Source: Cladocopium goreaui (taxonomy: Eukaryota; Sar; Dinophyceae; Suessiales; Symbiodiniaceae). Taken from it: a stretch of DNA of 64,000 bases. Both the position numbers and the translations under genes were made by a program. Positions 7,458 through 37,344 of this stretch are shown piece after piece (position 1 is the stretch's first letter; each line of letters begins with the position of its first letter). The notes under the pieces were generated by a model. That model worked only from the letters and a program-made list of their open reading frames with translations, searched no databases and was not told the origin of the DNA. The stretch is from NCBI GenBank assembly GCA_947184155.2, contig CAMXCT020006637.1:136938-200937 (forward strand), read 5' to 3'.

Positions 7458-7612
7458 CACTTCCGCATTAATGGCCTTATTAGCCGACCCGCACCGGACA
7501 GCGCTCAGTCTTTTTACCATCCTTGGAGCCTGTCCCGTGCCCTTTGACACAGAGGCAACGCCCTCTCCTCACCCAAATGCAGGTTCCTCACAAGAGGCCT
7601 CCTGCTTGATGG
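7455..7612. repeat. Split direct repeat B1 (158 bp)
   Basis: Internal copy of B next to A2. The last codons and stop of the recombinase gene (7588) lie inside it. Confidence 0.93.
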
Positions 7613-22972: not shown

Positions 22973-23400
22973 ACCAACAGCGAACCCAAAGATCGTCCAT
23001 CCTCAGAGTCCAAGCACATACCAGCCTTCTGGTCGCTATCCTCCCATTTCCACAGCTCTGCAGCTACACCCAATAGCCCCAAAGCAGTCTTGCGCCCTGT
23101 GCCCAAACATCCTTGTCGGAGGGCTTCCTCTCTCCGCAAAGGTGAACCATGGCCTTCCACCCCTGCCTCGTCCTCCCTTGCGCTCTCCAAATCTCCTCAG
23201 CTTTCAGCCTCCGGACATACCCTGCAGGGGCCGCTCTGTCGACCACATAGAGCTCCTCAACGCCTCCAGCCTCCTTTGTATATAAGCGGCCACCTGCAAG
23301 GTCCGTTCAATTTGTACGCCATCCTGCGTTCTTCGTCTCCATGCATCCAGACGTGGCCTCCCACTGCCGGTAGCATCTGATGGCTGCCCTTCCCATAAGC
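22780..23400 (-). other. Linker region between methyltransferase-like and recombinase domains
   Basis: Minus-strand frames here (22780-23190, 23064-23246, 23204-23410) are charged, without recognised motifs, and change phase often. They probably correspond to the variable region ahead of the recombinase. Confidence 0.4.
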
Positions 23401-23901
23401 TGTCTCCCATCGTTCATACTCCTGCCAACAGCCTGGGTCTGCCTTCTCAAGAACGGTTCCCAACGACGGCGGGGTGACCTCCTTCAGCATCCACTCCTCC
23501 AGTTGATGCGAGTTGACATTCTTGCGACTGATGAACAGAGCCCTTCGTCTCCTCACCAATGCTTCTCCCAGCTCAGACGTCAAAAACTCCACCACCGTGG
23601 TGTTGAAGCCGTTCTTTTCTGCTGCCTGTTCTCCAAGGTCCCAAGCAACCTCGCGGGGTCCCTCCAAAATGGCGATGTCGAACTCTTCGGCAATGAGATA
23701 GTCCCAAAACCGTCGCACCAGCTTTCCCCTGGGATCCGGTCCAACTGTAGCCGCCACGATGACGCCTGCTTGTTGCCCTCCTCGATGTCGAAGTACTCGA
23801 AGTCCTTCACCCTTCTCGGTCTGCTCGTCCACTCGACAATCTTCAATTGGTGTAGATCTTGAGGTTGACGTTGCACAGCCCTGAAGCGTCTGAGCTCCCA
23901 A
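23257..23901 (-). pseudogene. DNA methyltransferase-like remnant in the DIRS-like element
   Basis: A segment containing GPDPRGKLVRRFWDYLIAEE, then FDIAILEGPREVAWDLG and EALVRRRRALFISRK resembles the C5-methyltransferase region that follows the PCQ motif (a DPR..L......L helix), motif VI and the RxRxxF..... strand of motif VIII. I see neither motif I nor the catalytic PCQ, and ENV is replaced by LEGPREV. The upstream overlapping frame (23580-23876, KIVEWTSRPRRVKDFEYFDI) may hold part of the N-terminal half. It lies after RNase H rather than inside it. A diverged, probably dead methyltransferase is my best reading; an unrelated domain is possible. Confidence 0.5.
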
Positions 23902-24120
23902 AAAAAATCATCTGCTCATACCTGTCCCCTTCTTCGTGCCATGACAAAAAACACGGCCCAAATCTTTCCGTGTCCTCCAATGCCTGCCGCACCGCTTGGC
24001 GCAAGTCCACCATGCTCCAACCTCTCTCCTTGATCTTTCCTTCCACGTCCTCGGCTGAAAGTCGCGTGATAGCATCTGCATCCTCATTGTGGTATGTTCG
24101 CCACCATCCTCCAATAACCA
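23859..24120 (-). pseudogene. RNase H C-terminal end of the DIRS-like element (downstream of insertion)
   Basis: Reads VIGGWWRTYHNEDADAITR at the transposon edge, with the last catalytic Asp of RNase H in the NEDADAITR motif. It continues the RNase H that stops at 36579 on the other side of the inserted transposon. Excising 24121-36578 plus one copy of the CA dinucleotide joins MRYRCL to VIGGWW in one frame. Confidence 0.85.
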
Positions 24121-24240
24121 CTTTGGCGCTTTTTGGTTTTAGCTAGGTTACAAGTCAACTTATAACCACTTAGGTTACGTTAATTTCTTGCCCACTTACG
24201 GGCAGTTATAACTGACTTATAATCACTTAGCCACGAGAAA
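24121..24240 (+). repeat. Left terminal and subterminal repeats of the DNA transposon
   Basis: Terminal CTTTGGCGCTTTTTG followed by TTAGCT, GGTTACAAGTC, ACTTATAACCACTTAG, CCCACTTACGGG, AGTTATAACTGACTTATAA and TCACTTAG. The tandemly arranged ACTTATAA motifs in both orientations resemble the subterminal transposase-binding repeats of CACTA elements. Confidence 0.85.
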
Positions 24241-24385
24241 CTTCAGCAGCCACGTTAACACACGAGGATTGACCATGGTGGAGCACGAGGGTTGACCAAA
24301 AACAGAGCACGAGGGTTGGCCAAACACAAGTAAACAATTGAAGCCACACACGCGCTTTTTCCCGCAACGGCGCTATGGAGCTTCT

Positions 24386-24432
24386 TTGCCGGGCGAGCCT
24401 CGGCAACCGTGCGTGAGGCGAGCCTTCACGCA
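24386..24432 (-). promoter_or_regulatory. Border hairpins H1 and H2 (3' of the 443-residue gene)
   Basis: H1 24386-24406 has stem TTGCCG/CGGCAA and loop GGCGAGCCT. H2 24410-24432 has stem TGCGTGA/TCACGCA and the same loop. They lie 82-128 nt beyond the stop of the gene ending at 24514, between it and the left terminus. Stem sequences differ completely, loop is identical. Confidence 0.85.
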
Positions 24433-24513
24433 ACAGCCAACAGGTGTGTTTTCACACGGTTCCAGGCTCCTTTGGCACCATCCATTTTCCAACTGAAGCT
24501 TTTGTCTTTCTTC

Positions 24514-25845
24514 TCACCGTTCACCTTCACCCTGTATGAGGACGAGTTTGGGCAGACATAAATGGTCACATTCGAGTAGCGGACTGGCCCGCCTTCTTCT
24601 CCTGGAAACTGAAGAACTCTTTTTTTTGGGCGGAGGCTCTTTGGCTTCTGTCTGTGCAGCGCTTGCTGCTTTTGTCTTTGGAGTAGCCTTCTTCTTTGCT
24701 TTTGGCACCTTTGGCACCTTTGGCACCTTTGGTGGCGGGTTTTCGATCGCTTTCAATACTTCATTTGCCATGTCTTCAACATCCTTCTTGGGTACTTTGC
24801 TCTGCGCTTGCACTTTGGGCAGCGCTTCTTCTGAAACTTCTGCAGCCTGTGGGCTTTCAGCTTTATGATCTTCCTGGGGCGCTGGGTCAGGGGCAGCAAG
24901 AGCTGCAGGGGCAGCAGGAGCTACAGGCCTTTTTGCAGGGACCATTGCAGCACTCCCTGCAGAAGGGGCTTCCAAAGCAAGAAGCGGTCGCTTCTTTCTC
25001 GGGGGGAGCATGGTTAACTCCAGCTCCTCCCCTTCTCCACCACCAAGTCCCGCAAGCAACTGTTTCAGTTGTGAAAGCATGCCGCCGCTTTGACATTGCT
25101 GCAGCCCAGGCTTTCCACACATAGACCGTATGGAAGAATGGGTATCCCTTGCAGGCAAAACTTGGCACAAAAACTTCACCGCCATCTCATCCACCGGGCA
25201 CTTGACAGGCATTTGCTCACCATAGGCTCTGCGAAGCAAATCTTCTGGAAGCTCAGCAGGGTCTGCGGGGAAGAGAGAAATTTGCGCCTTCTTGAAACCT
25301 TTCAAACTGCGGATATGGCTCTTGAAGTCACGGACAGTGCTCAAGGCGTTCATCGGGTTGACCCGAAGCTCGTCCATGGGGCCTTTGTGGGCAGTCACGT
25401 ATGCGATGGCCACAACAGCGACCGAAGTTGGCTCGTCTGGGTTCAGCAGACCAAGCAAGGCCATTCTGTTGCTCATAGTCATGCATTTCTTCAAAATGCC
25501 TGGGTTCTTGGCCATTTCATCCCAGTCACTCTGCAAGAAATAGTTTGGAAGGTTCTCGCAGTGCTGGTTCTGTGGCTTCTTTTTCAAGGATTGCTCGCCA
25601 ATCCCTGCTTGAACCTTTTTCTGCACCAGGTTCGCTAAGTCGTCGTGCCACTTCTCTGGGAGATCTGCGCTTCCCAGCGTCTTCAACAGTGACGTCCCAA
25701 CTTCCATGGAAATGGGCGGAGCATTTTCTATGTCCAGAACGCAGGCCTGGAACAAGGCATCCATCTTTGCTTGGTCTGCGGTCAGCTTGCTTCGCTTCAA
25801 AGCCGCCAAGTAATCCAACATACCCACAAAGCGAGCTTCCGCCAT
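24514..25845 (-). CDS. Unknown 443-residue transposon protein
   Basis: I do not recognise the family. Starts MAEARFVGMLDYLAALKRSK at 25845. Residues 1-250 look like a folded, mostly helical domain with PNYFLQSDWDEMAKNPGIL and NRMALLGLLNPDEPTSVAVV. Residues 260-330 hold GG-rich and Pro/Ala-rich sequence with a KKRPLLAL patch, and the tail has three VPK repeats, KAKKKATPKTKAA and an SRRRRRASP basic run, plausible nuclear localisation and nucleic-acid binding. The end may be shifted by a run of T at 24611-24618. Upstream lie hairpins H3 and H20, downstream H1 and H2, the same bordering as its neighbours. A 16-nt box (25914-25929) shared with the gene at 31758-32852 precedes H3. Could be an accessory DNA-binding subunit of the transposase. 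Confidence 0.7.
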   Translation of the reverse strand: MAEARFVGMLDYLAALKRSKLTADQAKMDALFQACVLDIENAPPISMEVGTSLLKTLGSADLPEKWHDDLANLVQKKVQAGIGEQSLKKKPQNQHCENLPNYFLQSDWDEMAKNPGILKKCMTMSNRMALLGLLNPDEPTSVAVVAIAYVTAHKGPMDELRVNPMNALSTVRDFKSHIRSLKGFKKAQISLFPADPAELPEDLLRRAYGEQMPVKCPVDEMAVKFLCQVLPARDTHSSIRSMCGKPGLQQCQSGGMLSQLKQLLAGLGGGEGEELELTMLPPRKKRPLLALEAPSAGSAAMVPAKRPVAPAAPAALAAPDPAPQEDHKAESPQAAEVSEEALPKVQAQSKVPKKDVEDMANEVLKAIENPPPKVPKVPKVPKAKKKATPKTKAASAAQTEAKEPPPKKKSSSVSRRRRRASPLLECDHLCLPKLVLIQGEGER

Positions 25846-25869
25846 GGCTTGAAAAAACCCCTATCAAAC

Positions 25870-25929
25870 CACGGGGAATCCTCGTGAGCAGATTGTGCGG
25901 GACTAGCCTCGCACTTGGGCTTTGAAAAG
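25870..25929 (-). promoter_or_regulatory. Border hairpins H20 and H3 plus shared 5' box
   Basis: H20 25870-25886: stem CACG/CGTG, variant loop GGGAATCCT. H3 25895-25914: stem GTGCG/CGCAC, 10-nt loop GGACTAGCCT. Both lie in the 5' leader, 25-70 nt before the ATG at 25845. Next to H3, 25914-25929 reads CTTGGGCTTTGAAAAG on the plus strand; 32891-32906 has the same box with one mismatch, also next to a hairpin upstream of a gene. Confidence 0.75.
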
Positions 25930-25979
25930 AAAAGCAGGAGAGACGAACTTGTAAATGTCCTGTGAAAGGGAGGAGAAAC

Positions 25980-26100
25980 TACTATCTGGGGGTGGGCGTT
26001 TATATATATATAGTTATATATATATATATATATCTGTGTGTGTGGGTATATGCAGAACAACTTTGGGGTATATATATATATATATATATATATACAAAAG
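25980..26100. repeat. TA/TG microsatellites in an intergenic spacer
   Basis: TATATA runs at about 26003-26035 and 26069-26092 with a TGTGTGTGGG segment between. Lies between the hairpins of two gene borders. Confidence 0.85.
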
Positions 26101-26255
26101 AATCTTTGCAAATGCTATACAAAGACGGGCCTGAAACCTGGTATGTGCCCATGGGTTTTCAGAATTTTGCAGATTATATGCTGCACAATGTCTTTTTCAG
26201 GGCATCCTCCCATCCTCGCTGGATTTCAATGCCATCATATATATAAATATTTCAT

Positions 26256-26289
26256 GCATGGGCGAGCCTCATGCGCAGGCGAGCCTTGC
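26256..26289 (-). promoter_or_regulatory. Border hairpins H4 and H5, immediately 3' of the DNMT stop
   Basis: H4 26256-26274: stem GCATG/CATGC. H5 26275-26289: stem GCA/TGC. Both have loop GGCGAGCCT and are directly adjacent. The TGA at 26293-26295 that ends the basic DNMT tail is 3 nt from H5, which supports that frame as the real C terminus. Confidence 0.85.
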
Positions 26290-26292
26290 TTG

Positions 26293-27897
26293 TCAGCTGG
26301 AGCTGGACGAAGAGGACAGGAAACCATTCAAGCGCCAGGCGTCCTTGAAGCGAGGCTTCTCCAGATTTTTGACCACCGTGGTCGAAGATGCAGATGCAGG
26401 CCTCTTCAAGGGTCGCTGATGGCCGGTCACGGTCTGATCCACAGTCTTTTCTGCATCATCTTTTTTTGGCGCATGCTTTGCTGTCTTTCGCTTTCGGACA
26501 CTGCTCGCGGGCTTGGTTTTTTTTTGCTTGGGGGCGTTTTTTTTTCTGACTTTTTGCAAACATGGCTTCTTCCAAGCGAAGGCGAAGAGCTGGCTGATCC
26601 TCCAGCGCCTTGTCAACGCGGGGCAAATCATCAGGTCCAATCTTTTCAAGCAGGCCAGCCACTGCAGCAGCAATCAACGGGACAGGGTAGGCGTTGCCAG
26701 CAGCCTTGATCTGCAAGGCCTGGCTGTTGAAACTTGAGGATATGAACGCGGGAAATCCTTGCAGTGTGAACCGCTCCTGCGGCAACAGGAAACGGAAAAA
26801 ATCTCTTTCATGGTCTGGCTTTGAAAAATTCATGTCGCTCACAAAAAGGTAGCTGTTTGACGTTGTCAGCGTCGGGACCTTGTTTTTGCAAATCTGTCTT
26901 TTGTAGCACTTTCCATCTGCTCGGTCCAGAGGAAAGCAAACAATATCGCTTTCCTCAAGGTCACCATTCGCGAATAACTCCTTCAGTTGTCCTTGGGCAT
27001 CTTTGAGGTTCTTCTGCATGCATGAAGTCAAGCTTCCCCGATTCACGGAGGGAATACCGGGGACAAAAATTCTTTCAAACTTTTGGACCCAAAAGCGGGC
27101 AGCACCTCTGGGATCACATTGTCTGGACAGAGGCCTGAGCGGATCCCACGTAAGAAAACCCGGGTCCGGTCCTGTGGCAAGAGGTAATCCTTCGCTTTCA
27201 GCAGGGAGACGTCCCACAAAAACTCCGGGATTTCAGCTTTCAGGCATGAGACCAATTTATCCATGAAGGATTCTGTCTGGCCTTTCTGCTTGTGCAGAAT
27301 GCCTTTCACATTCTCTAACACCACTGCTTGCAGCTCCCCGCATTTTGCTAAAGACCCTACCACATTCACAATGCGGAGAAAGACTTCTGCGCGTTGGTCT
27401 TCTGCACCTTTGTGATTGCCATTCCCTGCCCAAGGCGGGCATGGAGGCCCTGCAAGAAGCAGGTGCACAGGTCGTTCCCATTCAGACAGTTTGACTTTCA
27501 GAACATCTCCATTGTCGGAGCCCAGGCGCGGTGGCTCCGCACTCTCCATGTAGGTTTCAAGGTACTTTTGGTAGCGGCGTTCCAAGTCATAGACATTGTT
27601 GCAATGGAAGTTGGCTCCCAAAAGTTTTAAGGCCCAGCCGGAGCCGTCGATTCCAACGCACGGCAAAGCTACATGGACTTGCCGGGCGAGCCTCGGCACT
27701 GACGGGAAATGATTGAACCAGTCGTTTGGCTCTGGGATAAAAGGCTTCATTGCTTGAACCACAAAATGAAGCTGCAAGAACAGGTCTTGTTGTGAAGAAT
27801 TTGCAGTTCCAGATTGCGCACATGTGCATGGCGCATGTTTCCAGAGCAGCAGAGCTTTGGGATTTTTCAGCCAGTGTGCATGGCATGAGCTGCTCAT
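26293..27897 (-). CDS. Cytosine-C5 DNA methyltransferase of the DNA transposon (frame-disrupted)
   Basis: Transfers methyl groups to cytosine in DNA. Frame 27897-27043 holds motif I (PCVGIDGSGWALKLLGA, about 79-95), the catalytic loop GPPCPPWAGNG (Cys153), ENVKGIL (195-201) and LLPQDRTRVFLRG (motif VIII, 239-251). Near 27045-27070 the text shifts by one base into frame 27217-26456, which holds FTLQGFPAF and AAGNAYPVPLIAAAVAG (motifs IX-X). A second shift in T runs near 26518-26548 leads to frame 26673-26293, a Lys-rich tail ending in polyserine whose stop is 3 nt from hairpin H5. All catalytic motifs are intact; the loop has PPCPPW rather than PPCQ. The two shifts lie in or near homopolymers, so an intact gene misread by assembly is possible. 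It is a different lineage from the DNMT at 8582-11191. Hairpin H19 lies 12 nt before the ATG and H6 lies within the N-terminal coding region. Confidence 0.85.
27680..27698 (-). promoter_or_regulatory. Hairpin H6 inside the DNMT N-terminal region
   Basis: Stem TGCCG/CGGCA, loop GGCGAGCCT. It encodes the VPRLARQ segment directly before motif I, so the residues upstream may be a later addition joined at this hairpin. Confidence 0.8.
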
Positions 27898-27908
27898 TGC
27901 CTTGCCAG

Positions 27909-27927
27909 GTGTGGGGATTCCTCACAC
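27909..27927 (-). promoter_or_regulatory. Variant border hairpin H19 before the DNMT start
   Basis: Stem GTGTG/CACAC around the 9-nt loop GGGATTCCT. Loop length, the GG at its start and the CCT at its end match the family although the centre differs. It ends 12 nt upstream of the ATG at 27897. Confidence 0.65.
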
Positions 27928-27959
27928 ACTTAATTGATTGCCAAAAAGCCGCTCAGGAA

Positions 27960-28358
27960 TCATTTCTTCTCTTGCCAGCGGTGGTAGTTGCAAGTCCAAT
28001 GCTCCCACTTTCCGCAACATTGCACCCACTGGCAGTGGCATTCTCCATCCTTTTGCCCCAGCATCCAGTCCGTATACGCTAAGGTCAGATCTCTAGGAGG
28101 GTTGTGCTTCATGGTGTTGTACCAATCATCATCCTCCACCTCCATGTCGGTTGGCTGGTCCCAGAAGTCCAAGGGCAACGTTTCAGCGCTCAAGACAGAA
28201 GCTGCTGGTGAGCAATCCTTGTTTTTGGATGAAGTTTCGGTGCTGACAGCTGCCGCAGGAAGAGAGCAAGTTTCACGCGCTGGTCCACCATCCCATCGAA
28301 CTACTTTGCTGGGGCGAGCCTCCAGCTTGTGTGGCAGTCCGCCAGCTGCAGACGTCAT
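27960..28358 (-). CDS. Small Cys/Trp-rich protein of the DNA transposon
   Basis: A 132-codon frame. I chose the ATG at 28358 (MTSAAGGLPHKLEARPSK) because hairpin H8 ends 6 nt upstream of it, the layout seen at other genes; the frame stays open to 28622. The middle is acidic (PTDMEVEDDDWYNTMK). The C terminus ECHCQWVQCCGKWEHWTCNY followed by H has a CxC...CC...C...H pattern and aromatic residues reminiscent of a CW-type zinc finger, though too short to assign. Hairpin H7 lies inside the coding region and encodes LEARPS. It precedes the DNMT by about 60 nt, so the two may be expressed together. Function unknown; a chromatin-reader-like accessory factor for the methyltransferase is a guess. Confidence 0.6.
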   Translation of the reverse strand: MTSAAGGLPHKLEARPSKVVRWDGGPARETCSLPAAAVSTETSSKNKDCSPAASVLSAETLPLDFWDQPTDMEVEDDDWYNTMKHNPPRDLTLAYTDWMLGQKDGECHCQWVQCCGKWEHWTCNYHRWQEKK

Positions 28359-28379
28359 GACTTTGCAGGCGAGCCTTGC
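28308..28379 (-). promoter_or_regulatory. Border hairpins H7 and H8 at the start of the small Cys-rich gene
   Basis: H7 28308-28326: stem GCTGG/CCAGC. H8 28365-28379: stem GCA/TGC. Both have loop GGCGAGCCT. H8 sits 6 nt 5' of the ATG at 28358, H7 lies within codons 11-17. Confidence 0.8.
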
Positions 28380-28809
28380 GGATATTATATGCCAGATTTC
28401 CTGAGCCTGGCAGCGTGGTTTCACGATGTATATAGTTGGACTCCTGCCAATGGCACGCTCAATAGCTAAGCAACTTGCACCTTTGTGTACTGTCTTGCTT
28501 GCAAGAAGTGGAAAACAGTAGCTGGTTGATTGGGGCTGGTGTGCTCTTTGAAAAACTGGTAAGAGAGCCAACGCGGGCTGGGAAAAAAGATTGCGTATGA
28601 ATATGTATGCAACAATACACAATACATATATATATATATTTATATATATATGGTATTATATCAACTAAATAAAAACAAAACTCACGTGGGGACATTCTAT
28701 TTGTCACTACAGAACTGTAATGTAAATAGATAGATAGATAGATAGATAGATATTTAGACACATGTAACAAAATATGTACAACATGTTTGCGTATGGATGT
28801 ATGTATGTC

Positions 28810-29335
28810 TATGGGCTTCCATTTTGGCACCACTGTGCGCATCCAATTTGGGAGCACTATGGGCTTCCATTTTGGTACCACTATACGCTTCCATTTTGGG
28901 GGCACTATGGGCTTCCATTTTGGTACCACTGTGCGCTTCCATTTTGGGAGCGCTATGGGCTTCCATTTTGGCACCGCTGTGCGCTTCCATTTTGGGGGCA
29001 CTATCGGCTTCCATTTTGGTACCACTGTGCGCTTCCATTTTGGGAGCACTATGGGCTTCCATTTTGGCACCACTGTGCGCTTCCATTTTGGGAGCACTAT
29101 GGGCTTCCATTTTGGCACCGCTGTGCGCTTCCATCTTGGGAGCACTATGGGCTTCCATTTTGGCACCGCTGTGCGCTTCCACCTTGGGAGCACTATGGGC
29201 TTCCATTTTTAGGTCCCATTGTGCGTTTCCATTTTGGGAGCACTATGGGCTTCCATGTTGGTACCAGCGTGCGCTTCCATCTTGGGAGCACTATGGACTT
29301 CCAGTTTGGTACCACTGTGCGCTTCCATTTTGGGA
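28810..29335. repeat. 48-bp tandem array, about 11 copies
   Basis: Each unit is two related 24-mers, GGGCTTCCATTTTGGCACCA-type and GCGCTTCCATTTTGGGAGCA-type. Period divisible by 3, so all frames stay open (for example KMEAHSAP/KMEAHSGA on the minus strand). No start context or hairpin border, so I treat it as a minisatellite. Confidence 0.88.
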
Positions 29336-30519
29336 GAAAGAACATAATATAATACTAAAAATAGGTTGGATCAATTGGACCATAGACAATGGATTATAAA
29401 TTTAAGACTTGGGATGAGATGAAAGTAGAGGTGATTAGATGACACCAGACTATAGATTAAATTAGGTTAGATTGGGTTAGACTGGACTAGACTAGATTAG
29501 AATAGATTAGAATAGATTTGATTGGACTGGACTAGGTTAGATTGGATTAGACAAATAGATTGGGTGAAGTAGATATTCAACCATATAGTGAATCACATTT
29601 AAAAACAATACAAATATAAACCGGGTGTCATGCAGTACAAAATCCGTTTGCTGTTCCACGGCCTTTGTTGGCAATGTGTCAAAACAAAATCATTTACTTT
29701 TGGCTGCCGATTTCAGAACAAATGTGGTTTGTTTATTCCATGTTCATGCTGGTGGACAAACGCAATTTTATCTTGACTTTTTGTTTGCAGCAACGCTTAC
29801 CCTTTTTGCCAAACACTGCAAACGCCAAGAAAACTGGATAACCGTTGTTTCACCATGGGCAGCTTTGGAAAACAACAGTGCACAGTGAACATTTTTTTAA
29901 ACACACGTTTTGGACAACACCCTTTTTTTGAACACATGTGGCATTAAAAAATATGCACTTATTATTTGTTTTTTTTTGCCCCGCAGGGCTGCATGAGCCG
30001 CTGGGTTGCAACAATCCAGGACAAAATATTGATGAACATTCACCTGCATTGTGCAAGAACAATTGAACAAAGTATTGGTCAAACCACTGTTTTTTTGCTA
30101 ACAAAGAACATGTGTTTGAACAAACTCCATTATACTTGGACATTTTTGGAGTGCTCAAATTTGTTTAGTGTTTGGCAGTGGCATGTTTTTCCTTTTTTTG
30201 TTACCCTCACAGCACGTAAGTAAAAATGAGGTGAAGGAAAACAACAACGAGAACAACTGGAAACACAAAAAAAACCACCCCAGGAAAAAAAGGAACATTT
30301 TCAGTTTTTGCCCCTGATACGGCTCTGATACGGCTCTGATACGCCCCTGATACGGCCCTGATACGGCCCAAATTTTCCAAAAAAAACTGCAAAAAAAATG
30401 TCAAACTGTTTTGACAAAATATATCGCAAAAAAAATCAGGAATCAAAAGTATAACTGATAGATTTACAAATTGGTTTTAAAAATATTGTTTTGGTGGATT
30501 TGTGAAACAAAAAATTCAG

Positions 30520-30920
30520 TACAGGATTTGATGTAAACCTCTGCCGTGATTTTTTTATCGGTGAAAAAAAGGAGTCAACAAAAAAAAGGACATTGTTGAC
30601 TTGCTGTTTGAAAGAAAAAGGCGCAGATCCAAACAGGGAGGACTTGATGATAACCTCTGCTGTGAAATTTCCATGGATGAAAATATGGAGTCAATAAACA
30701 TCTCTGAAATGAAATTTCCATATGAAAAATGCAGTCAGTACAAAATTGTTGACATGTTTTTTGGAAGAAAACCAGGCATGTGAACATCTGCCTTCAAATT
30801 TCTATCGGTGAGAAAATGGAGCCAATAAGCAAAGGAAATTGTTGATTTGGTTTTTGGAAAAAACAAACAGGCAAGGCTTGATGTGAACCTCTGCTCTGAA
30901 ATTTTGATGGATGAAACATG
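30520..30920. repeat. ~120-bp degenerate tandem repeat
   Basis: About three to four copies of a unit with GATGTRAACCTCTGC, GAAATTT, ATGGATGAAA and TTGTTGAYTTGBTTTTTGGA. Separated by A-rich insertions. Confidence 0.65.
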
Positions 30921-31076
30921 CAATCCAAACATCTGCAGTTCACAGGTTGAAGTGTGTTGCAGAAAACCTTGATGAAATATGAACGTCAGTGTACCACATG
31001 TATGTATATAGTCTAATTCGTTCAAGGTAAAGTGGAGTTCAGATGTTTGCGGGACATGTTCTGGCACAAATACATA

Positions 31077-31365
31077 TGTATGTATGTGTATGTGTGTATG
31101 TGTGTATGTGTGTATGTGTGTATGTGTGTATGCATGTATGCATGTATGCATGTATGCATGTATGCATGTATGCATGTATGCATGTATGCATGTATGCATG
31201 TATGCATGTATGCATGTATGCATGTATGTATGTATGTATACACTATATATATATAGTGATATATAATGATATATATATTATATCAGGTTATATTTTATTA
31301 TATTATATTATATTACATTATATTATATTATATTAAATTAAATTAAATTATATTATATTTATATA
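31077..31365. repeat. ATGTGTGT / ATGTATGC and ATTATATT microsatellites
   Basis: ATGTGTGT octamers, then about 14 ATGCATGT octamers, then TATATA and ATTATATT repeats. Confidence 0.9.
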
Positions 31366-31682
31366 CGGATAGGCCCCGGGGCTGTAACAGTGACCACAAC
31401 TGGACAGCACAAACGGAGCATTACAAAAATGCTCCAAATTGGGCTTATCTCTAATAAGAAGTCCCAACATATATAGCCATGTTCAAATCAGTTTTTTCCC
31501 ATTACCCCTGCGGGGTGGCATGAAAGCGGGCTGGATGGCATGAAAGCTGCTACTGCCTGGATTTTTTGCATCATGACTGTCCTGCAACTGCATGGCAACT
31601 GTTGTGACAAACAAGTGTTCAAAACATTTTGCGATCCCCCACGCAAATTTCTTTGGTATTGTCAGATCGAGCTCAAAAATGT

Positions 31683-31759
31683 TCAGGGCTAGCCTCTGAC
31701 ATGTCATATGGTACTGGGCTATGCCTCGATCCGTTGTTATCAAGGGGGCGAGCCTCCCT
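31683..31759 (-). promoter_or_regulatory. Border hairpins H9 and H10 at the 3' end of the zinc-binding gene
   Basis: H10 31743-31759: stem AGGG/CCCT, loop GGCGAGCCT; the TAG stop (31758-31760) overlaps the stem. H9 31683-31699: stem TCAG/CTGA, variant loop GGCTAGCCT, 60 nt further 3'. Confidence 0.8.
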
Positions 31760-32852
31760 ACGCGCTGCCCTGCTCAGCAACGAAGGCCATCGCCTGCTCC
31801 ACCTGACACTTCACACGGCTGGCACCGTCAGTCAGGACTTCACAATGCTTGTCCGCAGTCTCCAAGATCTCCTTCACATTGCCATGCTCCTTGCCAAGGG
31901 CGTCTTCAACTTTGGTCGAAAAAAGCAAGGCCTCATCGATCAGCTTCTCCGCAGCTTCCAGCACGTAGGCAGGCACCAAAGTCTTCACCTTCTCCGCTTT
32001 GGCCTTGGCGCACAAATCCATGACGTGCAGCCGCTTAGTTGTGAGCAACTCTATCTTCTTGATGATCTTTTTTTTCTCGCCAGCCTTGAGCTTGGGCAGC
32101 TCCTCATCCCCAGTGCCCGACTTGTTCTTCTTGGACTTCTTATTGGCCAAGCTGCCATCGTTGCCATCATCTCCGCCACCTTGGTTCTTGGGAATCTTTT
32201 GCACCTTCCTTTTATCCACACGGCTGACTTCTTCAGTATCGGTGGCCGTGCGCTTGTAATTCACATCTTCGTAAAGCCAGACTTGCCTCACCGCGCAAAA
32301 GAAGCGGCGAGTGTTGGCAAAAAGGTTCTGCAGCTGCTCTGGCTTGTTCTTGTAGCGTTCGTTCATGTCAGCCTCGTCAAAGTATTCCCCACTGCCTTCA
32401 AATTCCACCTTGGTGGACAGTCGCTTGGACTCAACGATTGTTTCCTGCATGCGGGCAAGAAGGTCCTCACCAGCAGCATTCTGGAAGTTCTTGTAAAACT
32501 CTTTCTTTTGCTCTTCTGTCACATTGGTCCAATCTTGCGCCAGGGACCCATGCTTCGAAATCACGCGGTTGACCCGGGATTTCAAAGAGTGGCACGACTT
32601 GCAGCGCCGAGCCAAGGGTTGTTTTTGAGTAGAACGCATCAGCACAACGCTGTTCTCATCATTGACTGGCTTCTTGCAAGTACTGCAAGTCGACGGCTCG
32701 GGCTTTCCATCCACCTTAGTCTCCGGCGTGTTGAGAGGAGCCACTCCGCTGGCTTCGCTGGAAGCTTGAGCGTTCTGGCTTTCCCACTGCTGTGTGGTCA
32801 CAGCAGTCTCAGCACCATCTGAAGAGGCGGCAATGGAAACCTGATCAGACAT
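31758..32852 (-). CDS. Zinc-binding, Lys-rich protein of the DNA transposon
   Basis: A 364-codon frame. I chose the ATG at 32852 (MSDQVSIAASSDGAE) because hairpin H11 ends 3 nt upstream; the frame continues open to 32891. Residues about 55-100 hold CSTCKKPVNDENSVVL followed by RRCKSCHSLKSRVNRV, a CxxC...CxxC zinc site followed by a basic helix. An aromatic-rich central domain follows (RRFFCAVRQVWLYEDVNYK), then a Lys-rich linker (KKSKKNKSGTG) and a helical C-terminal domain (KKIIKKIELLTTKRLHVMD to VEQAMAFVAEQ). Function unknown. Zn-binding plus basic segments suggest nucleic-acid binding, for example end recognition, but nothing proves it. Bordered on both sides by hairpins: H11 before the start, H10 overlapping the TAG stop. 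Shares a 16-nt upstream box (32891-32906) with the gene ending at 24514. Confidence 0.75.
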   Translation of the reverse strand: MSDQVSIAASSDGAETAVTTQQWESQNAQASSEASGVAPLNTPETKVDGKPEPSTCSTCKKPVNDENSVVLMRSTQKQPLARRCKSCHSLKSRVNRVISKHGSLAQDWTNVTEEQKKEFYKNFQNAAGEDLLARMQETIVESKRLSTKVEFEGSGEYFDEADMNERYKNKPEQLQNLFANTRRFFCAVRQVWLYEDVNYKRTATDTEEVSRVDKRKVQKIPKNQGGGDDGNDGSLANKKSKKNKSGTGDEELPKLKAGEKKKIIKKIELLTTKRLHVMDLCAKAKAEKVKTLVPAYVLEAAEKLIDEALLFSTKVEDALGKEHGNVKEILETADKHCEVLTDGASRVKCQVEQAMAFVAEQGSA

Positions 32853-32855
32853 GAT

Positions 32856-32906
32856 CCGAAGGCGAGCCTTTCGGTTTCTCACTTTTGGCACTTGGGCTTG
32901 GAAAAG
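32856..32906 (-). promoter_or_regulatory. Border hairpin H11 and shared 5' box
   Basis: H11 32856-32874: stem CCGAA/TTCGG, loop GGCGAGCCT, 3 nt before the ATG at 32852. The box CTTGGGCTTGGAAAAG at 32891-32906 matches 25914-25929 with one mismatch. Confidence 0.85.
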
Positions 32907-33048
32907 TCTACGGGAAAAAGTGCTTGTTCAAAAAGAGATGAAACATGCGAATGAAAAAACACGCGAAACCAGGATTCAGGTACTGCAGCAGGGCTAACGC
33001 AGCTGTTTTCTATCTTTTCTTTACAGTGAAGAGAAGCGGTTGCGCGCA

Positions 33049-35010
33049 TCAAGCACAGGCGAGCCTTGTGCAAGGAAAGATGCCTTCCTGACGCGTGACA
33101 TAAGAAACTGCTTTCATGTCCGCAGTACAAAAATAAATCCGTTTCTCCCTTGTCGATTGGAAAATGTTGTTTCCCGCAGCCTGTTCTTCATACAAAGTGC
33201 CCCAAACCAGGAACTCTGAAGATGAGAGCAGTCGCACCTGCAAAAAAAGATCTGCTTGCACCAAAACCTTTTCTTCCGGAAGCCAAATTAAATCCGTTTG
33301 CCGCAAATAGCCACCTTCAAAGCGAAGAGTCTTGGAGCCATAGGCTGCTTGCATTCCGGGAAAGAATGGCTGGAGCCATGCTTCTTCTGCAATCGATTTG
33401 GGGTGCTCCAAAAAAACTGGGAGCAAAGAATGCTCGTCTTGAAAAGAGGCAAGGTCTTCAGCAACGGCGCGGTAGAAAACACCTTTTTCCACATTGGAAA
33501 AAACCTTGCTGGCCAGTGTTTTTACCCCTTTGTGTTTCCTCTCCGGGCTGAAGCAGCTCAAGTTGCACTTGAACTTCAGAAGCTGCGGTGGAACATGACG
33601 CAGCCAATGCGTCTTGGGTTTATTGCATTCCGGGTACAAATCTAGAAACAACTGGTGGTGCTTTGCAATATCATGTTCCAGCTGTGGCATGTGAGCCAAA
33701 ACATTTTCCTGCATGGACAGCAAAGAAATGATATTCATCATGCTTTCCAAACATGCAGTTTCCTCCTGCAAAAGATTTCCAGGCCGCACCATGACATGCA
33801 CCAGCATGTTCAGAATGTCCATGTATTGAAACATTTCACTAGCAAAAGCTTTGACGTGAGCGTCGTCCTCATTCACAACGCGTTTTTGAAAGTAGTTTTT
33901 TGGCCATGAAGCTGCTTTCTTGGGCCATTGCACTTGCGCTGCGAAATCATCCAGGGCTGCAAGAGTCATGCCCGTTGTTTTGCAAAGCCGCCGGGTGTAC
34001 TGGTTGAATTCATATTGCGCCACACCCCCACTTGCCATGAGGATATGCATCCAATCCCAGCAGTTGTTTGTAATGGGGTTGCATATGTTTTGAATTTCCT
34101 GGCACCATGGCAAACCAAGCGGATGAAATACCAGGCCGTAAGCTTTCTCAAGCTTGTCGAACCTTTTGGGGTGTTCCTCGGATGCTGCAATCTTGAGCAT
34201 GCAAGCCATGTTTTGGAAGCTTTCTGCAGAATGCAAATCAAACAGAGCAGCATCCGCACAAGTGTAAGGCACCAAGTAACTATGCCCAGGGGGTGCCGCA
34301 TTCCGTCCCATCACATTCTTACACAAGTGGCAAGGCTTGTAGGAGGATGCCCCTTTTGTACACCAGAGCTGAACCAGCGCTTTCTCATCTGCCAGCAAGC
34401 AAGACAAGGTTGCAAAAAGCAAGAAGTTTTCAGTCGTAGTCTTACAACAGATACCACTGGTATCAAAACTCCAATTGCAAGTTGCTTTGCCAAAAAATGT
34501 TTTTACCATGAAGGTGAACAAAAAGGAATGCCCACCATCCACCCGCTCGACCAATGCCAAAGGGAACATGGCAAAATGAAACCACCCGTTTTGCCTTGCA
34601 CGGAACCAAGATGGCAGCTGTGCTATGGTCCAATAAAAGCACACCAAACTCCGGCCAGCATCAGGACGAAGTATATTTCCAGGCTTTATCTCATCCTGGT
34701 AAAAAACCAAGCTTAGCTTTCCGTGGTGACGCCTTGCGTCCCGCAACATGTCTCCAAACCCGGGCTTCCAATTGCACATGTGATGAAGCAGTGCAAATGG
34801 ATTTACATATTCCATCGTGTGTGTCTCCCCATTGGTCAAGACAACGGTGGTGGATTGCAAAATTTTCCCATATACGCTGTCAATCTCCAGCGGTGCACGG
34901 ATAGCTTCGCGCAAATGGTCTCTCTTCTGGCCATCTTGTCGTAGCTGTGCTGCAGCACTCAAAGAAACACTCGGGGGCACAAAATGCTGAAAGATTTTGG
35001 GGCGTGGCAT
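33049..35010 (-). CDS. Candidate DDE transposase (CACTA/Plavaka/KDZ-like)
   Basis: A 653-codon intact frame starting MPRPKIFQHFVPPSVS. Candidate catalytic residues, by analogy with Tnp2/Plavaka-type transposases, are Asp106 in LVFYQDEIKPGN (followed by LVCFYWTIAQLP), Asp208 in CLLADEKALVQLWC, and Glu490 in CFSPERKHKGVK, preceded by KPKTHWLRHVPPQLLKF. Between the first two Asp residues is an FNW-type core strand (NWSFDTSG), and a KPCHLC zinc site follows the second Asp. NNCWDWMHILMASGG (about 315-329) matches the conserved D/N-x-M-H insert. Same strand and bordering as the other genes. The last seven residues are encoded by hairpin H12 and the TGA (33049) follows it. Family assignment is from motif memory, and a database search could move it between CACTA, Plavaka and KDZ. 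It is the only transposase-like gene in the element. Confidence 0.68.
   Translation of the reverse strand: MPRPKIFQHFVPPSVSLSAAAQLRQDGQKRDHLREAIRAPLEIDSVYGKILQSTTVVLTNGETHTMEYVNPFALLHHMCNWKPGFGDMLRDARRHHGKLSLVFYQDEIKPGNILRPDAGRSLVCFYWTIAQLPSWFRARQNGWFHFAMFPLALVERVDGGHSFLFTFMVKTFFGKATCNWSFDTSGICCKTTTENFLLFATLSCLLADEKALVQLWCTKGASSYKPCHLCKNVMGRNAAPPGHSYLVPYTCADAALFDLHSAESFQNMACMLKIAASEEHPKRFDKLEKAYGLVFHPLGLPWCQEIQNICNPITNNCWDWMHILMASGGVAQYEFNQYTRRLCKTTGMTLAALDDFAAQVQWPKKAASWPKNYFQKRVVNEDDAHVKAFASEMFQYMDILNMLVHVMVRPGNLLQEETACLESMMNIISLLSMQENVLAHMPQLEHDIAKHHQLFLDLYPECNKPKTHWLRHVPPQLLKFKCNLSCFSPERKHKGVKTLASKVFSNVEKGVFYRAVAEDLASFQDEHSLLPVFLEHPKSIAEEAWLQPFFPGMQAAYGSKTLRFEGGYLRQTDLIWLPEEKVLVQADLFLQVRLLSSSEFLVWGTLYEEQAAGNNIFQSTREKRIYFCTADMKAVSYVTRQEGIFPCTRLACA
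33053..33071 (-). promoter_or_regulatory. Border hairpin H12 at the 3' end of the transposase
   Basis: Stem GCACA/TGTGC, loop GGCGAGCCT. It encodes the final CTRLACA residues, and the TGA stop starts 1 nt after it. Confidence 0.85.
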
Positions 35011-35054
35011 CCACCAAAAACAAGACGATGAGAATCAATGGCTATACATAAATA

Positions 35055-35124
35055 CAAGAGGACGAGCCTTCTTGAATCATGAGACCTATATGCGTTCTCA
35101 AAATGAGAGGACGAGCCTTCTCAT
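35055..35124 (-). promoter_or_regulatory. Border hairpins H13 and H14 between transposase and mini-ORF
   Basis: H13 35055-35074: stem CAAGA/TCTTG. H14 35103-35124: stem ATGAGA/TCTCAT. Both have the 10-nt loop variant GGACGAGCCT. H13 lies in the transposase leader. H14 contains the TGA of the 64-codon ORF. Confidence 0.85.
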
Positions 35125-35315
35125 GCATCTAAAAAAAGTTTGAAGATATGAGTTGAAAATGGCTGCCAGACTACGCATGTGAAACTGATGCGTTTTTGCC
35201 AAGATTGCTTGACGTTTGAATCATGTTGACATGCAGCGATTTTTTCCAAACGCGTGTCATGTGGCATGCGCATGTCACCGCATGCATGCTGTCCATGGCG
35301 GGCGAGCCTCACCAT
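35121..35315 (-). CDS. 64-codon mini-ORF bounded by hairpins
   Basis: The ATG (35313-35315) lies in the stem of H15 and the TGA (35121-35123) in the stem of H14, so this frame exactly spans the space between two border hairpins. It reads MVRLARHGQHACGDMRMPHD and onward, with two or three Cys and no recognised motif. No homologue is known to me. It could be a real small cistron of the same class as its neighbours, or chance, since a 190-nt open frame is not rare. The placement of both codons inside hairpins is the only positive evidence. Confidence 0.4.
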   Translation of the reverse strand: MVRLARHGQHACGDMRMPHDTRLEKIAACQHDSNVKQSWQKRISFTCVVWQPFSTHIFKLFLDA

Positions 35316-35348
35316 GCTGCTTGCATTTGAGCGGGCGAGCCTCGCTCA
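35294..35348 (-). promoter_or_regulatory. Border hairpins H15 and H16 at the 3' end of the KH-like gene
   Basis: H15 35294-35316: stem CATGG-C-G with CCATG and one C/A mismatch. H16 35328-35348: stem TGAGCG/CGCTCA, whose last three plus-strand bases (35346-35348) are the stop codon of the KH-like gene. Both have loop GGCGAGCCT. Confidence 0.87.
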
Positions 35349-36146
35349 TTTCTCCTCAGATCGACTGCCAGGACCTCCATGATGCTTGGGCCTCCACGCT
35401 GTCCTTTTGCGATCTCTGCCGCGTCCGTCCGAAGTCTCCTCCTCAGGCTTTTTTTTTCGCCTGCGCTTTTTTTTCCCGGTGCCATGCTCAGGAATGGGCT
35501 CACAAGCGCTCAGCGCGCCATCCCCATGCACAGCGTCCGCCGGCACCAGAGTCGGTGCTTCAGACACTTCAGAGAACTCACCCGGGCTTTTTGTCACATC
35601 TGACGGGGGGCTTGCCTCGCGTGCTTTCTTGCTTTCATTCTTGCGGGGCGCCTTGCCCTTGGAGTTGGCCGGGTTGGCCACTGAGGACTGAGCAGCGTAT
35701 GGTTGGCCATTCTCGTTCGCATTGCACCACCAGTACCAGCCTTCCAGGACCTGAATCCTCCAGGCATTGTTGGCACACTGTTGCTCTGCGGCCTGCAGCC
35801 TCCGCTGCAAGTCTTGGACTTCTTCTTTTGTAGGCCATTCCTTATACTTCCATGAGTCATCCCATGCACCCCTCTTCCATGAACGCTGAGGCTCAGGAGG
35901 GGGGCCTCGAGGTTCTGGGGCTCTTCCTCCATCATCCCCATTCAGCTCAACTTTTTCCAAGGCCATCTTGTGTGCAGCCTGCAGCTTGTCACACGGCCCG
36001 CACAGCGTCAGCATTCTCTGGTTCCATTGCCCTCGCTCTCGTATGGCCGCGCTGCAGCCGGTCGCATCTCGAATTTCCAGCCTCTGTTCTGCTGTCAGGG
36101 TTCCCTTAATGGGAAATGGGCCTAGATGCCCGTCCAGGCTCGCCAT
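35346..36146 (-). CDS. KH-like RNA/ssDNA-binding protein of the DNA transposon
   Basis: A 266-codon frame from the ATG at 36146 (MASLDGHLGPFPIKGTLTAE); the frame is open a few codons further without an ATG. Residues about 20-68 (LEIRDATGCSAAIRERGQWN, then RMLTLCGPCDKLQAAHKMAL) fit the KH fold pattern: helix, GxxG-like loop (TGCS/ERGQ), strand, helix with AH..A. A short coiled region (EVQDLQRRLQAAEQQCANNA) and a Trp-rich WYWWCN patch follow, and the tail is Lys/Arg-rich (GKKKRRRKKKPEEE). KH-like modules bind single-stranded RNA or DNA, which would suit a protein reading hairpins in transcripts or transposon ends, but that is inference. H16 contains its stop, and H17 and H18 precede its start by 14-65 nt. 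Confidence 0.68.
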   Translation of the reverse strand: MASLDGHLGPFPIKGTLTAEQRLEIRDATGCSAAIRERGQWNQRMLTLCGPCDKLQAAHKMALEKVELNGDDGGRAPEPRGPPPEPQRSWKRGAWDDSWKYKEWPTKEEVQDLQRRLQAAEQQCANNAWRIQVLEGWYWWCNANENGQPYAAQSSVANPANSKGKAPRKNESKKAREASPPSDVTKSPGEFSEVSEAPTLVPADAVHGDGALSACEPIPEHGTGKKKRRRKKKPEEETSDGRGRDRKRTAWRPKHHGGPGSRSEEK

Positions 36147-36159
36147 GGCGGTGGCCAAT

Positions 36160-36211
36160 TGATCGGGCGAGCCTCGACCAGTCAGCGTTTGCCGGGCGAG
36201 CCGCGGGCAAA
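36160..36211 (-). promoter_or_regulatory. Border hairpins H17 and H18 upstream of the KH-like gene
   Basis: H17 36160-36180: stem TG-A-TCG with CGA-C-CA (one mismatch), loop GGCGAGCCT. H18 36188-36211: stem TTTGCC/GGCAAA around a loop containing GGCGAGCCG. These are the weakest of the set but still complementary. Confidence 0.75.
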
Positions 36212-36339
36212 AAAACCTTTCAACTTGAGATTTCTCAGCCAGGATTCGGGAGCCGAGAAAAAAAACATTTTCTCCCGCGCAAAGAATGAGAGATGCGCCA
36301 AAAAATCACCTGCTTTGAAAAAAAACCCGAGAAACCTGG

Positions 36340-36578
36340 GGACTTAGGTGACTTAGCTAAGTCCACTTATAACCACTTAGTCACGTTCGATTCTCGTGGC
36401 ACCTAAGTGCACTTATAACCCAGCTAACCAGTTACAAGTCACTTATAAACTGTGCTGCACTTATAAGTCACTTAGGTTTGACATAGCATGGTTATAAGTC
36501 TACTTGACACGGTTATAAATCCAGATAGCCATGTTATAAGTCCAGTTACAAGTCAGCTAAGTTCAAAAAGCACCAAAG
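36340..36578 (-). repeat. Right terminal and subterminal repeats of the DNA transposon
   Basis: Ten or so copies of ACTTATAA / TTATAAGT with CACTTAG and GTTACAAGTC, then AGCTAAGTTCAAAAAGCACC and AAAG to 36578, followed by CA. Mirrors 24121-24240 in inverted order. Confidence 0.85.
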
Positions 36579-37344
36579 CAGGCATCTGTAGCGCATCTCT
36601 ACGAGGTTGAGCACTCGAATCAGATCTGATTCCACTCCTCCGACTTGTCACCCAGTGGTACACCGTCTTGTTGTCTCCACCGTAGAGCACCACCTTACCC
36701 GTCCACCTGGCTCCCACAGCGCATGCAAATGCCACGAAAGACAGCATCTCTCCGAGGTGAATGGCTAGGGGCCCTTCTCCATTGATTTCCTCCTCAGCCA
36801 GCACCTGCACGATCCACGGCTTGAGCTCCTCAACCTCCTGTCTGCATACCAAACCATGCGTCCAATCGATTGAGCCCAAGACCGTAGGCGTTGCATCTGA
36901 CGAAACAAACACCGCTGTTCGGAACTGTCCTCCAGGAAGTGCCAAGCGTTCCAAAGGTGCGAGCGCTTCTCGAATGTCTCCTCCAAACTTCTCTGCCCAT
37001 GTCTCGGACCTCGAGCATGACCACCTGCAGTCCTCAAAGAGCATCCAGAGGTCCTCCCACGCTTGCTCCTCTTCGTGCACCGTCATGCACTTGGAAGGGT
37101 TCGCTCTGGCTCCTCCTTCTGATCCTCCAAGGAAGCGCTCTGCTGCCTTCAGCTCATTCTTGAGGCCCTTCACCACCACCGACCATCCTGTAGCGATGCC
37201 CCGAAACCTCTGCATTTCCTTGAAGGTGACCGTTTTCTCGCCAAAATTGAACTGCGGTTCCGCCAGCAAGTAGGCTCCTTTCAAAACTCGCGCCTCAGGC
37301 AATGACATCTTCTCCGACACTGTGTCGATGTTGACCCCCCACAC
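36579..37344 (-). pseudogene. RT connection and RNase H N-terminal part of the DIRS-like element
   Basis: The frame from 37344 starts in WGVNIDTVSEKMSLPEARVL, which corresponds to the region after RT motif C, then LKNELKAAERFLGG, and RNase H with VSSDATPTVLGS (Asp), HLGEMLSFVAFA (Glu) and YGGDNKTVYHW (Asp). Near 36610-36650 a 1-nt shift moves coding to a frame reading IRVLNLVEMRYRCL, which is cut by the transposon at the next codon and resumes at 24120. RT motifs A, B and C are absent, so this copy cannot reverse-transcribe itself. Unlike the element at 7222-14305, RNase H contains no inserted methyltransferase. Confidence 0.82.

Follow-up and report, generated by a model that had tools for sequence, protein, structure and literature searches.

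The window analysed here is a 64,000-nucleotide (nt) stretch of the Cladocopium goreaui genome (contig CAMXCT020006637.1, positions 136,938 to 200,937). It contains a 12.46-kb terminal-inverted-repeat DNA transposon with six genes, termed A to F, and twenty short hairpins that all lie inside this element (Table 1). Each hairpin joins a nearly constant loop to a stem whose letters differ from site to site, and the hairpins gather at the starts and stops of the six genes. The hairpin set is a real, strongly non-random feature that is common to relatives of the element; its function is a prediction.

Structure and covariation of the hairpins

An earlier sequence-only reading of this DNA had described about 20 hairpins with a constant loop and site-specific, paired stems. 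All 20 were re-found by a core search of the window, with every core on the plus strand. On the coding strand the form is stem-A-GG-N4/5-CC-stem', mostly AGGCTCGCC (13/20 hairpins). In the repeated unit a stem of about 5 base pairs (bp) is followed by a bulged A and by two G-C pairs, which close a loop of 4 nt, or of 5 nt at three sites, in agreement with the earlier description: GG/CC is present in 20/20, A at the bulged position in 19/20, and a 4-nt loop in 17/20. A purine directly 5' of the bulged A, itself a stem base, occurs in 20/20 and was absent from that description. The loops had also been assigned to the YNMG class. By the YNMG rule this holds for 18 of the 20 (5-nt loops judged by their first four bases) and fails for AUUC and AAUC.

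Watson-Crick arms of at least 3 bp are formed at their own site by 19/20 hairpins, with 90 pairs in total; the lone miss, site 35301, has a 7-bp arm once one G.U is permitted. Stem positions 1–3 are paired in 60/60 cells on the coding strand (59 Watson-Crick and one G.U), and pairing further out involves 17/20 hairpins at position 4, 15/20 at position 5 and 8/20 at position 6. The 20 hairpins have 19 different 5-nt arms, and coding-strand G.U pairs lengthen three stems (25874, 35301 and 36166). When arms from different sites were combined, 15/380 combinations reached 3 pairs. Across 20,000 re-deals of the arms, 1.69 sites paired on average and never more than 7, against 19 observed. Chance complementarity was rejected on this result, which answers the shuffled-flank check proposed with the sequence-only reading. 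Three further core matches in the window (57088 +, 63908 +, and 36136 - within the element) have arms of 0.

The covariation test and covariance model used 17/20 hairpins; the three 5-nt-loop sites were omitted because the aligner put them out of register. The covariation score was 0.650, compared with 0.188 +/- 0.037 for shuffled sites (0/500 shuffles reached 0.650) and 0.06–0.19 for slid-structure controls. Cells with change on both sides were likewise far above shuffled and slid controls. Two of five covariation measures were not above the shuffles, namely pairs changed on both sides (310/500 reached the observed value) and further pair types (99/500). The score supports the earlier proposal that structure, not sequence, is under selection.

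A covariance search, also proposed earlier, was run unfiltered over the window: 18 element sites came first, followed by two non-element matches at chance level (14.8 and 14.6 bits, E 0.12 and 0.14) and then the 19th element site. The three held-out 5-nt-loop sites ranked 17, 18 and 21. Site 26278, a training member, gave only a partial match (10.3 bits, E 2.5), and all 20 sites were recovered by E 5. A looser scan of both strands (A-GG-N4/5-CC, arms of at least 3) found four other places with 3-bp arms each (38140 -, 35919 -, 21667 - and 63087 +); its pattern preferred the longer loop, so that 8/20 known sites were listed. Other repeated loops examined in the window (GGCT[CG]AGTT, TCCAGCC and GCTGGCCCA) belonged mostly to copies of repeats, in which the stems are identical or almost so. 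A search of Rfam at E up to 1 returned 18 matches, all simple repeats (25999–26096 and 31066–31264) and all below gathering scores.

Position relative to genes

The orientation is common to 20/20 hairpins and matches that of the genes (minus strand of the window), as the sequence-only reading had noted. Joining hairpins at most 65 nt apart gives 12 clusters, exactly one at each of the 6 starts and 6 stops. With the start codon taken as the first ATG of the open reading frame (ORF), except in gene E, whose ends come from intact relatives, 18/20 hairpins lie within 100 nt of a coding-sequence end, whereas 20,000 random draws placed 3.8 there on average and at most 12. The median distance is 41 nt, versus about 339 for random points. 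The previously reported location at gene borders and the enrichment at starts and stops within the element are thereby borne out. The gene E ORF of the window has an earlier ATG near 27897, nearer still to hairpin 27914; the gene D ATG was sought near the hairpin, though its ORF has no earlier ATG.

Clusters at start codons make up 6/12, and 10/20 hairpins are nearest a start. The stop codon lies in a hairpin or at most 3 nt from one in genes A, B, C and E, and the gene C ATG follows a hairpin by 3 nt; some other sites are 50–120 nt from the codon. The element has no gene upstream of gene A that could own the cluster at the gene A start. Doublets occur at the outer gene ends and in the A/B, C/D and E/F gaps, and singles in the B/C and D/E gaps, a pattern that suggests four units (A, B+C, D+E and F). 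P0011, a public gene model fusing relatives of B and C, fits the B+C unit. The two hairpins downstream of gene A lie within an imperfect 33-bp tandem duplication (35281–35343), which hints at how doublets arise before their stems diverge.

Table 1. Coordinates of the transposon, its genes and its hairpins in the window
Feature	Position	Strand	Basis or remark
Whole element, terminal-inverted-repeat DNA transposon, six genes	24121..36578	-	inverted 46-nt ends
Left terminal inverted repeat	24121..24166	+	46 nt, 74% complementary
Right terminal inverted repeat	36533..36578	-	46 nt, 74% complementary
Gene A, 266 amino acids (aa): KH-like domain (1-70), helix, basic tail	35346..36146	-	predicted structure, structural matches
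Gene B, 653-aa transposase-like protein; last codons in hairpin	33049..35010	-	42 listed homologues; invariant residues
Gene C, CxxC..CxxC protein	31758..32852	-	ORF; no Pfam match
Gene D (putative), about 132 aa	27960..28358	-	longer ORF 27960-28622 without Pfam match
Gene E, C5 cytosine DNA methyltransferase	26293..27750	-	Pfam PF00145, 1.6e-19 (ORF 27043-27897); homologues
Gene F (putative), 443 aa	24514..25845	-	ORF; no Pfam match
Hairpin, gene F stop, 2nd	24386..24406	-	6-bp arms; core search, pairing, covariance model
Hairpin, gene F stop, 1st	24410..24432	-	7-bp arms; core search, pairing, covariance model
Hairpin, gene F start	25869..25887	-	4 bp + G.U; loop AUUC
Hairpin, gene F start	25895..25914	-	5-nt loop; held-out covariance match E 0.0087
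Hairpin, gene E stop, 2nd	26256..26274	-	core search, pairing, covariance model
Hairpin, gene E stop, 1st	26275..26289	-	3-bp arms, weakest; partial covariance match
Hairpin inside gene E, about codons 18-24, directly before methyltransferase motif I	27680..27698	-	in-frame RLAR in 10/118 homologues
Hairpin, gene D stop / upstream of gene E	27909..27927	-	loop AAUC
Hairpin inside gene D start region	28308..28326	-	core search, pairing, covariance model
Hairpin directly upstream of gene D ATG	28365..28379	-	core search, pairing, covariance model
Hairpin past gene C stop, 2nd	31683..31699	-	core search, pairing, covariance model
Hairpin, gene C stop	31743..31759	-	stem takes in part of stop codon
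Hairpin, 3 nt upstream of gene C ATG	32856..32874	-	core search, pairing, covariance model
Hairpin coding for gene B C-terminus, beside stop	33053..33071	-	core search, pairing, homologue C-termini
Hairpin, gene B start	35055..35074	-	5-nt loop; held-out covariance match E 0.07
Hairpin, gene B start	35103..35124	-	5-nt loop; held-out match E 0.35, below two non-element matches
Hairpin past gene A stop, 2nd	35294..35316	-	7 bp with one G.U
Hairpin, gene A stop	35328..35348	-	stop codon within stem
Hairpin, gene A start	36160..36180	-	6 bp with one G.U
Hairpin, gene A start, outer	36192..36206	-	C replaces bulged A

Hairpin residues in relatives

Pairing in relatives was scored by synonymous codon choice. 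The core AGGCTCGCC reads R-L-A in one frame, and the gene B C-terminus reads ..PCTRLACA. Gene B homologues at 51–94% identity end TRLAC, ARLAR or VRLAH, for which the codon pairs ACA/TGT, GCG/CGC and GTG/CAC are open; P0016 and P0018 (34–35% identity) end LRLAQT and LRLARGRQP. RLA falls within the last 12 residues in 13/42 gene B homologues versus 0/118 methyltransferase homologues. With identical contexts counted once, at least 4 Watson-Crick pairs are allowed by 7 of the 9 distinct terminal RLA contexts (8 with G.U) and by 1 of the 14 distinct internal ones (3 with G.U). When the right-hand residues of the seven pairing contexts were drawn at random, 2–13% of draws equalled the observed Watson-Crick value or exceeded it. 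The gene B alignments held 11/42 homologues (A1) and 20/42, one being the window's own protein (A4); alignment A3 held the window gene A protein and 7/11 gene A homologues.

Directly before motif I, RLAR is found in the gene E homologues P0054–P0062 and P0067. At this place 9/10 allow at least 4 Watson-Crick pairs, versus 2/29 at other RLA places, and the gene E relatives add little on compensation because most of the ten have one context in common. The gene A leaders of 8/11 homologues contain 8 core-compatible motifs in the 171 residues before the domain versus 3 in the 1,973 after it (P0044 two, P0045 three, P0048 one and P0051 two in the leader); P0046, P0049 and P0053 were omitted, having no recognisable domain start. 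Homologues of A and B occur on equally long contigs (45857, 5431 and 5581), as do those of B and E (43221), so the genes are probably linked. A search with the gene B and gene A alignments found no related loci in viral and prokaryote contigs.

Proposed RNA recognition sites and a candidate reader

With a little more than even confidence, we take the hairpins to be sites of recognition at the RNA level, carried by the sense transcripts of a single transposon family. Hairpins within coding sequences and, as a weak hint, the coding-strand G.U pairs point by inference to a role at the RNA level. Because the last gene B codons and early gene E codons lie in hairpins, these would stay in the message. 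A protein-read hairpin is proposed because a constant loop and bulge on a free but paired stem are typical of such sites. Under this proposal, the sense RNA of the element would fold into these hairpins in the cell, and a protein would read the constant part, namely the bulged A, the two G-C pairs, the 4–5-nt loop and the purine below the bulge. The lower stem would need only to pair, so that its letters could drift with compensation. With one or two sites per start and stop, each mature message would be tagged at both ends, or, in a joint transcript, each coding segment would, and binding might label the element's own messages or control their translation.

In a stronger form, which we regard as possible but doubtful, the element family would run a message-labelling code, in which an element-encoded RNA-binding protein reads hairpins at both ends of every coding sequence. 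If true, such a code would let element messages be told from those of the host, controlled, protected or gathered as a set, and would add a new kind of gene regulation in transposons. Phages and host mRNAs are known to carry loop-read hairpins one at a time or a few together; hairpins that mark every start and stop and persist across deep divergence would give a transposon a new means of managing its messages. The finding supplies a candidate RNA-protein pair and a search handle for similar elements. In dinoflagellates, control is said to be mostly post-transcriptional (available part of PMC12787238). No such element appeared among the titles and abstract beginnings listed by targeted searches, a narrow look at the literature.

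The best candidate for the reader within the element would be the gene A protein, an assignment drawn from its modelled KH-like fold and its basic tail that we regard as less likely than not. Residues 1–70 are modelled as beta-alpha-beta-beta-alpha with a predicted local distance difference test score (pLDDT) of about 80–95. The structural matches, of modest significance, are headed by KH domains, including Nova KH3, and a PDB sequence search gave weak KH matches only (best E 0.092).

Several observations weigh against these interpretations. The relatives are known from proteins alone, and their hairpin arms are deduced from protein sequence. Partners swapped among the terminal gene B contexts reach 4 pairs in 33/72 combinations (46/72 with G.U), a control that does not separate because the terminal contexts are alike. 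P0004 (81% identity) ends TRLAY, which is unable to pair, and P0005 (82% identity) and 28 more of the 42 gene B homologues lack a terminal RLA. The stem measure in the two other frames has a high background (11/20 unrelated places), so the evidence from the gene A leaders lies in where the motifs sit and how dense they are, not in the stem score. Stem positions 4–5 contain 2 G.U but also 3 A.C, the latter in two sites with only 3-bp stems, so the strand argument from G.U is weak, a hint of RNA rather than proof. Genes D and F are putative, unverified ORFs. The gene A domain lacks the alpha1/GXXG part, its model having one helix between strands 1 and 2, and Pfam gives no KH match for the gene A protein encoded in the window. 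According to the available part of PMC12787238, GXXG is crucial for RNA binding and KH folds with modified GXXG do not bind RNA.

Known protein-read hairpins show both likeness and difference. The MS2 coat-protein operator, which lies at a start codon and represses translation, has the same topology as the hairpins described here: about 5 bp of lower stem, then a bulged A, and two G-C pairs closing a 4-nt loop. It differs in its loop letters and in being one site, whereas 20 are found here in a eukaryotic transposon. MS2 coat protein needs A at loop position 4, and the 4-nt loops of the element end in G or C. The likeness is best taken as one of shape, not descent; the letters of the MS2 operator hairpin are given in the available part of PMC10602879. 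Smaug/Vts1 recognition elements likewise place a fixed, protein-read loop (CNGG) on a non-specific stem in mRNAs, but with another loop, no bulged A and in host mRNAs, and the available part of PMC4053848 describes no marking of genes at both ends. The introner elements of Amoebophrya are also dinoflagellate repeats with inverted, folding ends (available part of PMC7789003); they differ in being introns with 8–20-nt terminal repeats, as opposed to 15–23-nt gene-end hairpins.

Alternative explanations

The single orientation and the one cluster per gene border would also suit processing signals, with RNase III- or Cas6-like cutting of a long transcript into single messages, or marks of transcript ends. 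Giant viruses (Mimivirus and Marseilleviridae) do end transcripts at sequence-variable hairpins at gene borders, according to the available parts of PMC4402537 and PMC5413956. As described there, however, the viral hairpins mark transcript 3' ends and are palindromes without conserved sequence; an RNase III recognises them, and cleavage and polyadenylation follow. In this they differ from the short stems with a constant loop found here, which lie at starts in 6/12 clusters. Marseilleviridae palindromes near starts are attributed to the upstream gene (available part of PMC5413956), which leaves the gene A start cluster unexplained because no gene precedes gene A in the element. Cutting at the gene B and gene E hairpins, which encode residues kept in relatives, would damage the messages. 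The Pfam scan of the ORFs gave no nuclease, a weak argument, as five of the six genes match nothing. We consider processing unlikely. The sequence-only reading had included it in a broader RNA-level role, of which the general part is supported by the hairpins in coding sequences and, weakly, by the three stems with G.U, and the processing part is awkward where residues are kept in relatives.

Sites of folded or double-stranded DNA read by a transposase or recombinase, for example in gene-cassette assembly or exchange, would explain why the hairpins lie within a transposon and flank genes like cassette borders. Against such sites stand the same orientation in 20/20, the spread over 12 kb and not at the termini, the coding-strand G.U in three stems, the fixed places in homologous genes, and the equally long contigs of A, B or E homologues, which suggest a stable gene set; we judge them quite improbable. 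The integron-like cassette-joining site suggested earlier was rejected. Integron attC sites have conserved outer core sites and a variable middle, whereas here the loop is constant, the outer arms vary, and the sites stay put in homologous genes, in one orientation, while the flanks change. Ribosomes rather than a protein reader could respond to the hairpins by start-site pausing or stop read-through, in keeping with hairpins that abut start and stop codons (stops in A, B, C and E; the gene C ATG), but simple pausing needs no constant loop or bulged A and the more distant sites fit it poorly, so that we give this account very little weight. Least credible is a copying or insertion mechanism that makes each hairpin anew from the core and an inverted flank copy, without function. 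This origin, also raised in the sequence-only reading, would produce short arms that differ at nearly every site, yet the residues of the gene B-end hairpin stay in place in relatives at 51–94% identity while both flanks change, the ground on which it was rejected, and G.U intermediates exist.

The transposon and its surroundings

Inverted ends at both termini place the element among the terminal-inverted-repeat transposons. CACTA/CMC transposons carry a CACTA-type terminal motif, whereas the inverted ends here start CTTTGG. The candidate target-site duplication, a 2-bp CA, is weak, as the script listed only junctions having a duplication. Subterminal short repeats such as ACTTATAACCA occur in both ends (24121–24330 and 36340–36578) and are possible transposase sites. 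A 48-bp tandem array of 11 copies with 90% matches, made of TTCCATTTTGG units, lies between genes D and C (28809–29336). The transposon seems to interrupt a retroelement region in its flanks (23257–24120 and 36579–37344), whose peptides we take to be RNase H-like. The joined-flank test was not decisive: each of five junctions leaves some frame open (up to 258 aa), the element junction 114 or 178 aa by frame.

A Pfam scan of the element ORFs at 0.01 gave DNA methylase as the sole match, with no integrase and no levivirus coat-family match. Gene B resembles a transposase of the DDE type that carries a zinc pair, its catalytic role being suggested by invariant D/E residues: across 20 of 42 homologues (P0014 numbering), D112, D123, D212, C231, C234, D323 and H326 of WDWMH, and E493 are invariant. 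Neither gene B nor the 20 members of alignment A4 match a Pfam transposase family, a PDB sequence search with gene B gave nothing convincing (best E 0.33), and its structure is modelled poorly (mean pLDDT 50.7). A weak BAH-like match (Foldseek probability 0.97, E 0.16), odd for a transposase, falls in the gene B C-terminal part (33049–33500).

The gene E copy in the window changes frame, and its ends were set from the intact relatives P0055–P0058. Intact relatives of this frame-shifted methyltransferase exist (P0054–P0059); P0057, from Cladocopium goreaui of the Symbiodiniaceae, matches 73% of the methyltransferase query at 100% identity. DNA methyltransferase (DNMT) retrotransposons of Symbiodinium, from the same algal group, are likewise mobile and carry a cytosine methyltransferase (available part of PMC5890265), but they are retrotransposons, in contrast to the present terminal-inverted-repeat DNA element with its transposase-like gene. 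Elsewhere in the window, another methyltransferase ORF (PF00145, 4.1e-14) lies beside an integrase-like ORF below the Pfam cut-off (3.6e-5) at 7588–11191, and the pair may represent a DIRS-type DNMT retrotransposon like those already published. At 53848–54909, a Ulp1-like C48 peptidase ORF (2e-4) is perhaps part of another mobile element.

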